From contig ML996691.1 of the NCBI GenBank assembly GCA_010356995.1, forward strand, positions 345,299 to 409,298: a stretch of DNA of 64,000 bases, in the 5' to 3' direction. Positions 6,651 through 8,008 of this stretch are shown here, in pieces. The notes beneath the pieces were generated by a model that was not told where the DNA came from, did no database searches, and saw only the letters and a program-made list of their open reading frames with translations. The stretch is from Trichodelitschia bisporula. Taxonomy: Eukaryota; Ascomycota; Dothideomycetes; Phaeotrichales; Phaeotrichaceae. Made by a program: the position numbers and the translations under genes. Each line of letters begins with the position of its first letter. Position 1 is the first letter of the stretch.

Positions 6651-8008
6651 CTAGACAGGGCGAGGCTTGCCCTTAGTCGCCTTCTTCGCCTTCGCATCCT
6701 CCTTCTTCTTCTTCTTGCTCTCCTGAATACGCTCCTCGTTTTTGCGCTTCAGTTTCTCCTGCTCCTCTGGCGTCCGAGCAACAGGCTTGAAGAAACCCTC
6801 AAGCCGACTCTGCTGCGCAGTCTTCAGGTTCTTCTGCAGACGCGCCGCGCCACTACGAACACGGTCCTCGCTGAATCCCTTTTCCTGGACTAGGAACTTG
6901 ACCAGACCGTCAACGTCGGGCTGCTCCCACTTGATGTCGCACTCGGGGTCGCTCGCGGGGCGCACATCAGGCGCAACGAACAGCTGACGGGCATCTTCAT
7001 AGGGCCAGTCATCCGGAATAATCAACTTGGTCGAGCCCTTGATGTGCTCGAGCACGCCTTCGAGGGTCTTGTGCTCACGGATCAACTTCAGTGCTGTGGT
7101 AGCGCCGACGCCCTTGATCGGGTCGAGATAATCGCAGCCGAGCAGGATGCAGAGATCGATGAACTGGGAGGTTAGAGAGGGAGCAAGATCTACGGTATTA
7201 GCTCACCTGGGGCCGCTCCATGCCCATCCCCTCAAGCACCTTATCGAGATGAATCTCAAGAATCGGCTCCTTACGCTGCTCGCTGAAGGTCAAGTGCCGC
7301 AGCAGGATAGGCGTATTGAAAGTCAAAGTATCCATATCCTCCGACGCCGCAGCATACACCTTCCCCGCACGTGCCAGCTCCGCGCACTGGGCCTCCGCCT
7401 CCGTCGGCGCAATAATGTACGGAATACCCATAAGCTTAAGCAGCCGCCGGCACTCCTCATTATGCTCGCGCGTAACGCGGACAGTCCGCCGCGAAAAGCG
7501 CTCAATATCCTCCGCCGTACCCGTTTCCTTCGCCTCCTCGACCGCCTCCGTCGCTTCCGCCTTGCGCTGGAAACGCTTGGCCAGTTCGCCGGACTTGAGC
7601 TTGGGCGGCTTGCCGTCGAAGACGTAGACGGGCTTGATTCCGTTGTCGACCATGCGCAGCGTGCGGTAGAAGAGGCCCATTAGGTGCGAGGTTGTTTCGC
7701 CGGTTTCGTTGGTGAGTTGCTGGCCGTCGGTGCGCACGGCGATGAGGAAGCTGTAGATGGACATGGAACTGGGGGATTAGACGAGAAGAGTGCATGAGCG
7801 GTAAGGCTTACGCATCCTGCGACGGTTAGGATCTGGTACGGGAAGGGACGGAAGGCTTACAATGGCGACTTTGCGACCGAACTGATGCTTGATCTCGCCC
7901 TTCTTGATGGAGTCGGGTGCTTCCTCCTCGATCACCTTGAACAAGTCTTGACTGTGAGTACATTGTTGCGCTTGTGATTTGTAGTGCGTACGTACTTTTG
8001 ATACCCAT
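6651..8008 (-). CDS. RAD27: Flap endonuclease 1 (Rad27/FEN1), five exons with a 5-nt micro-exon
   Basis: Exons 8008-7996, 7946-7861, 7816-7812, 7768-7207 and 7163-6651 encode 392 residues. Introns are 49, 44, 43 and 43 nt. FEN1 cuts 5' flaps during Okazaki-fragment maturation and base-excision repair in the nucleus. The first joint uses an AAG acceptor, chosen because it yields the invariant start MGIKNLFKVI; a CAG four bases upstream would give MGIKSTQDLF only with a different donor. Exon 3 is just GATGC, flanked by CAG and GTAAGC, and restores [14 protein letters not shown]. Catalytic acidic residues seen: Asp34, Asp86 (YVFDGKPPK), the [11 protein letters not shown] pair, the ASEDMD pair and the [12 protein letters not shown]sp. 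The PCNA box QSRLEGFF sits near residue 337, before a Lys-rich nuclear signal. Without exon 3 the frame breaks. Confidence 0.95.

Follow-up and report, generated by a model that had tools for sequence, protein, structure and literature searches.

How is the codon for Asp34 of the RAD27/FEN1 gene restored in Trichodelitschia bisporula, when one exon ends at Ile33 and the exon further downstream begins with Ser36? Asp34 of FEN1 is, we take it, a metal-binding catalytic residue. A preliminary description of the locus proposed that a micro-exon of five bases, GATGC, fills the position, that the spliceosome must define this exon between two very short introns, and that its skipping could act as a switch. 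Here, we analysed the window, which is the whole stretch of 64 000 nucleotides, together with other stretches of the same genome (25.65 Mb in 30 contigs). The observation itself is confirmed, while its earlier interpretation is partly supported: GATGC is, with a high degree of confidence, a genuine 5-nt coding exon of the fungal FEN1/RAD27 gene that would be included constitutively.

The gene is predicted to occupy positions 8008–6651 of the minus strand, where five exons would be joined to encode 392 amino acids (Table 1). Its earlier identification as RAD27 holds. The alignment of the spliced protein with human FEN1 starts at residue 1 (query residues 1–386 of 392), and FEN1 is the best protein match (E = 2.3e-131, as against 4.3e-30 for RAD2, 2.2e-22 for GEN1 and 1.2e-21 for Exo1), which places the protein nearest to FEN1 and not to XPG/Rad2, Exo1 or GEN1. 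The Pfam domains XPG_N (1–107) and XPG_I (149–233) both score over the cut-off, the pair expected together in one FEN1/RAD27 protein of about 380–390 amino acids. After splicing, D34 falls on position 34 of human FEN1, with no gap in the alignment ahead of it, in agreement with the earlier assignment of GATGC to Asp34 and two bases of Ala35. The QSRLEGFFK stretch in exon 5 presumably resembles a PCNA-binding motif. In the excerpted text of an account of the FEN1 active site, other invariant carboxylates are described and Asp34/D34 goes unmentioned (PMC5490271). The first 37 codons of RAD27 are split among four exons. Five bases upstream of the intron 1 acceptor TCAAG lies CACAG (7947–7960, minus strand), a possible competing acceptor whose use, judged by eye, would put the message out of frame.

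Table 1. Predicted features of the RAD27/FEN1 gene (positions are those of the window).
Feature	Positions	Strand	Length (nt)	Description	Basis or remark
Exon 1, coding part	7996..8008	−	13	ATG to first base of codon 5; MGIK-N-LFKVIEE	Human FEN1 alignment from residue 1; sequence-inferred
Intron 1	7947..7995	−	49	GTACGT...TCAAG	Splice-path model
Exon 2	7861..7946	−	86	Ends at Ile33, phase 0	Splice-path model
Intron 2	7817..7860	−	44	GTAAGC...CTAAC (7829-7825)...GCAG	Branch-to-acceptor 8 nt
Exon 3 (micro-exon)	7812..7816	−	5	GATGC; Asp34 and two bases of Ala35	Path enumeration; homology-free scan
Intron 3	7769..7811	−	43	GTAAGC...CTAAT (7780-7776)...CCAG	Branch-to-acceptor 7 nt
Exon 4	7207..7768	−	562	From Ser36; remainder of XPG_N, most of XPG_I	Alignment, domains
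Intron 4	7164..7206	−	43	GTGAGC...CTAAC...CCAG	Splice-path model
Exon 5	6651..7163	−	513	Stop codon, QSRLEGFFK stretch, lysine-rich tail	Alignment

That the locus is a pseudogene or an assembly error, a reading for which we found no point in favour, is exceedingly improbable: the spliced frame is open across 1179 nt, the match to human FEN1 is close to full length, and there is no second FEN1-like copy among the XPG_I matches listed for the genome (at least four), where RAD27 is the one FEN1-like entry. In the viral and prokaryotic collections, no FEN1 relatives were found in viral contigs with exon 4 as the query or in genome contigs with the whole protein.

The splice path across the region is constrained by the reading frame. 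Exon 2 ends at 7861 with ...GTCGCCATT, the last codon being that of Ile33, and exon 4 begins with TTCCATG at 7768, ahead of which two more bases are needed; the gap between the two is 92 nt. Within it, GATGC at 7816–7812 (minus strand) is preceded by ...TCGCAG (ending at 7817) and followed by GTAAGC (from 7811), exactly as had been reported for its CAG acceptor and GTAAGC donor, and the flanking introns, previously given as 43–44 nt, measure 44 nt (7860–7817) and 43 nt (7811–7769). We enumerated the paths from exon 2 to Ser36 that use one or two introns of at least 20 nt with GT-AG, GC-AG or AT-AC ends. This gave 136 in-frame, stop-free paths, and IDA before SM (...KVAIDA-SM) is restored by a single one, that with introns 7860–7817 and 7811–7769 and the exon GATGC. 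The earlier claim that GATGC is the only route to IDASM is thereby upheld within the enumeration. The ranking of paths by score was biased, as the target already had IDA, and the count of one in 136 is unaffected by it. Among the 25 of the 136 paths that were listed, three others also combine GATGC with intron 3, using first donors at 7839 (a 23-nt intron), 7866 (a GC donor) or 7869 (GTCGCC); these add residues, or drop Ile33 and its neighbours. The sequence of GATGC and its surroundings has the features of a micro-exon, namely a tiny coding exon (at most about 30 nt) between an AG and a GT, flanked by introns with branch sites.

One in-frame path dispenses with the micro-exon by means of a single intron of 81 nt (7849–7769, donor GTCCCT), which would give a full-length protein without Asp34. 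This path is among the 136 that are stop-free, and a simple intron finder working without micro-exons also picked the donor at 7849, joined to another acceptor (99 nt). Nevertheless, we consider it very improbable. It loses a residue that is common to human FEN1 and, by eye, to the Rad2-like (VDASIW) and Exo1-like (VDAYGW) paralogues, its donor has C at position +3 in place of the canonical GTR, and the complete splice signals around GATGC are left unexplained.

The complete pattern of these signals around GATGC occurs at one site in the sequence examined. When the 92 nt were dinucleotide-shuffled 100 000 times with six bases fixed at each end, AG-GAYGC-GT appeared 15 times; none remained once YAG and GTRNG were added, nor once both branch sites were added. 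A homology-free scan looked for exons of 1–15 nt with a canonical intron on either side, the whole being bordered at both ends by open frames that resembled coding sequence (25 codons, coding score). On both strands of 303 434 bases it returned 157 candidate introns and one micro-exon candidate, which was GATGC; the control on reversed sequence returned 102 candidate introns and no micro-exons. The 303 kb contain overlapping paralogue loci (L001, L002 and L004 with L026, L028 and L029), and the repeats of the RAD27 locus (L003, L025 and L027) were excluded from the count. Since the limits of the scan were set with the RAD27 gene known, it lends support to the micro-exon rather than constituting an independent discovery.

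A 5-nt exon is near-impossible under exon definition, and it was for this reason that the preliminary description found it remarkable. The flanking introns suggest another route. For comparison we used 62 introns predicted from the window and other stretches, a small and noisy set of which two members are wrong calls inside RAD27, and a cleaner subset of 38. The subset has a median length of 50.5 nt; nine of its introns are no longer than 44 nt and 19 are no longer than 49 nt, the latter all within 40–49 nt. Introns this short would be recognisable singly, across the intron, and the claim that a spliceosome must define the 5-nt exon is not supported. Both introns 2 and 3 have a GTAAGC donor, a CTRAY branch site and a CAG acceptor, and their branch-to-acceptor distances are the two commonest among the predicted introns (8 nt, as in intron 2, in 16 of 38; 7 nt, as in intron 3, in 6 of 38). 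Some features of the donors count against the reading: none of the 62 predicted introns has GTAAGC as its donor, and donor strength among the 38 lies at the 16th percentile for intron 3 (TGC/GTAAGC) and at the 34th for intron 2. The intron 3 donor is equalled or outscored by ten of the 67 GT sites in RAD27, four of them being the gene's own donors and six other GTs.

In the model that we propose, introns 2 and 3 are short, ordinary introns of the U2 type. Five bases separate them, the former following Ile33 in phase 0 and the latter splitting the Ala35 codon in phase 2, and each would be recognised by intron definition through the donor, the CTRAY branch site and the closest CAG that belong to it. 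The two would probably be spliced out sequentially, because two spliceosomes hardly fit at once on sites that are five bases apart; whichever intron went first, the site pair of the other would be left intact. The five bases may be kept by purifying selection, acting both to preserve the metal-binding Asp and to hold the frame. A review regards intron definition as the prevalent mode for small introns and reports that how well it works depends on the length of the intron and not of the exon (PMC8624252), so that taking out two self-sufficient short introns in turn would suffice. The same source, in its excerpted text, states that Prp40 is required to include exons that are too small for enhancers.

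Consecutive removal is also reported for the stwintrons of Pezizomycotina, which are short introns (PMC6616335), and the two RAD27 introns resemble them in being short, adjoining and at one place; for RAD27, consecutive removal is a proposal only. Nevertheless, excision of the entire 92 nt in two steps, be it as a stwintron or through loss of the exon, has a negligible probability. In a stwintron, by definition, an internal intron splits one of the splice signals of the external intron (PMC6616335), whereas in RAD27 five coding bases separate two introns that each have complete signals. A transcript without the 92 nt would, moreover, be out of frame and lack Asp34.

The coding effects of mis-splicing bear on whether GATGC could be regulated. 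When it is skipped, 33 native residues are kept and the frame shifts, as had been stated earlier, with a stop after 121 amino acids. Retention of intron 3 gives GAT GCG TAA, an immediate stop after Asp-Ala (35 amino acids); retention of intron 2 leads to a stop after 78 amino acids, and retention of all 92 nt to a stop after 60. As the computed mis-spliced forms are truncated, inclusion of GATGC should have to be efficient.

The proposed switch, in which inclusion would vary with growth phase or DNA damage and skipping would lower active FEN1 through frameshifted mRNA, is an unlikely reading of these effects. The frameshift of the skipped form and the rather weak donor of intron 3 are consistent with it, and a 20-nt micro-exon of Trichoderma Xlr2 reportedly works as a switch, its glucose-dependent inclusion altering a transcription factor (PMC11121469). 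The two exons are alike in coming from filamentous fungi, in forming part of a functional motif and in having a length that is not a multiple of three; unlike that of Xlr2, with its glucose-dependent inclusion, the RAD27 exon is known from sequence alone. Plain skipping of 5 nt, however, yields no second usable isoform, and some mis-splicing is expected even without regulation. FEN1 is required in every S phase, which also counts against a switch. We detected no hint of regulation, and RNA folding of the region does not stand out from that of shuffled sequence, 177 of 200 randomisations folding as well or better (z = +1.16). With the skipped and retained forms truncated and the folding unremarkable, the earlier suggestion of a switch is unsupported. 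A related idea, which we rate just as low, is that the cell tunes inclusion of GATGC and thereby sets nuclease dosage through the share of RAD27 mRNA that carries the catalytic Asp, possibly together with an inactive, DNA-binding competitor lacking Asp34 made from the weak 7849 donor. Constitutive inclusion of GATGC is strongly preferred to both.

The origin of the two introns can be approached by comparison with each other and with the paralogues. Introns 2 and 3 begin with the same nine bases, GTAAGCCTT. Interior shuffling reached their overall similarity score in 1856 of 5000 cases, whereas pairings among the other predicted short introns did so in only 8 of 253, leaving a faint likeness beyond chance pairs, which base composition can explain. 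An introner-like or duplicated intron is not supported: the genome holds no other copy of the 92-nt stretch, its one match being itself, and the two introns match each other no better than shuffles do. In the Rad2-like (L026) and Exo1-like (L028) paralogues the equivalent Asp lies inside one open frame, intronless at that place, and the RAD27 introns are therefore not shared with these two of the three paralogues; the third (L029) matched only XPG_N 55–90. The simplest view would be that the two introns were gained independently, at sites close to each other.

Micro-exons are already known in fungi. Romfo et al. (2000) reportedly studied one in fission yeast and, going by their title, the pairing of splice sites across the intron; this is the mechanism of intron definition that we propose for RAD27, in another organism and another gene. 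A 1-nt exon is described in CYP621A of Fusarium, with 18 SRA RNA reads, and is given for 20 orthologues in the abstract and for 24 genes in the discussion (Nelson and Syed, 2026; PMC12940212). Like the RAD27 exon, it is ultra-small, belongs to a filamentous ascomycete, lies in a conserved motif and came to light through a phase mismatch of the flanking exons, CYP621A having been mis-modelled by annotation. Unlike that exon of 1 nt with its many orthologues and RNA reads, the RAD27 exon has 5 nt and is known from the sequence of one genome. An 8-nt micro-exon in CYP5141A1 of Phanerochaete likewise lies within a highly conserved motif, although in a basidiomycete P450 (cited in PMC12940212). No report of a FEN1 micro-exon was found among the matches listed in the open-licence literature. 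In contrast to the CYP621A exon, that of RAD27 presumably encodes a metal ligand of FEN1, and the exon is notable because five bases supply this Asp. The FEN1/RAD27 case is very probably a striking addition to the few tiny micro-exons on record.

A 5-nt exon bearing a metal ligand of FEN1 offers a natural test of how small intron definition lets fungal exons become. It also shows a practical risk, since automatic annotation may model RAD27, and similar genes, as lacking a catalytic residue; two of the introns that the simple finder called in RAD27 were wrong.

Upstream of RAD27 lies a divergent open frame (8605–8931, plus strand) with an ATG near 8716. This piece had no match in Pfam; by eye, we take it to resemble the N-terminus of a mitochondrial acyl-CoA/glutaryl-CoA dehydrogenase. 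Downstream, a convergent gene (5576–6310, plus strand) matches the DASH_Spc34 kinetochore protein (E = 2e-32).
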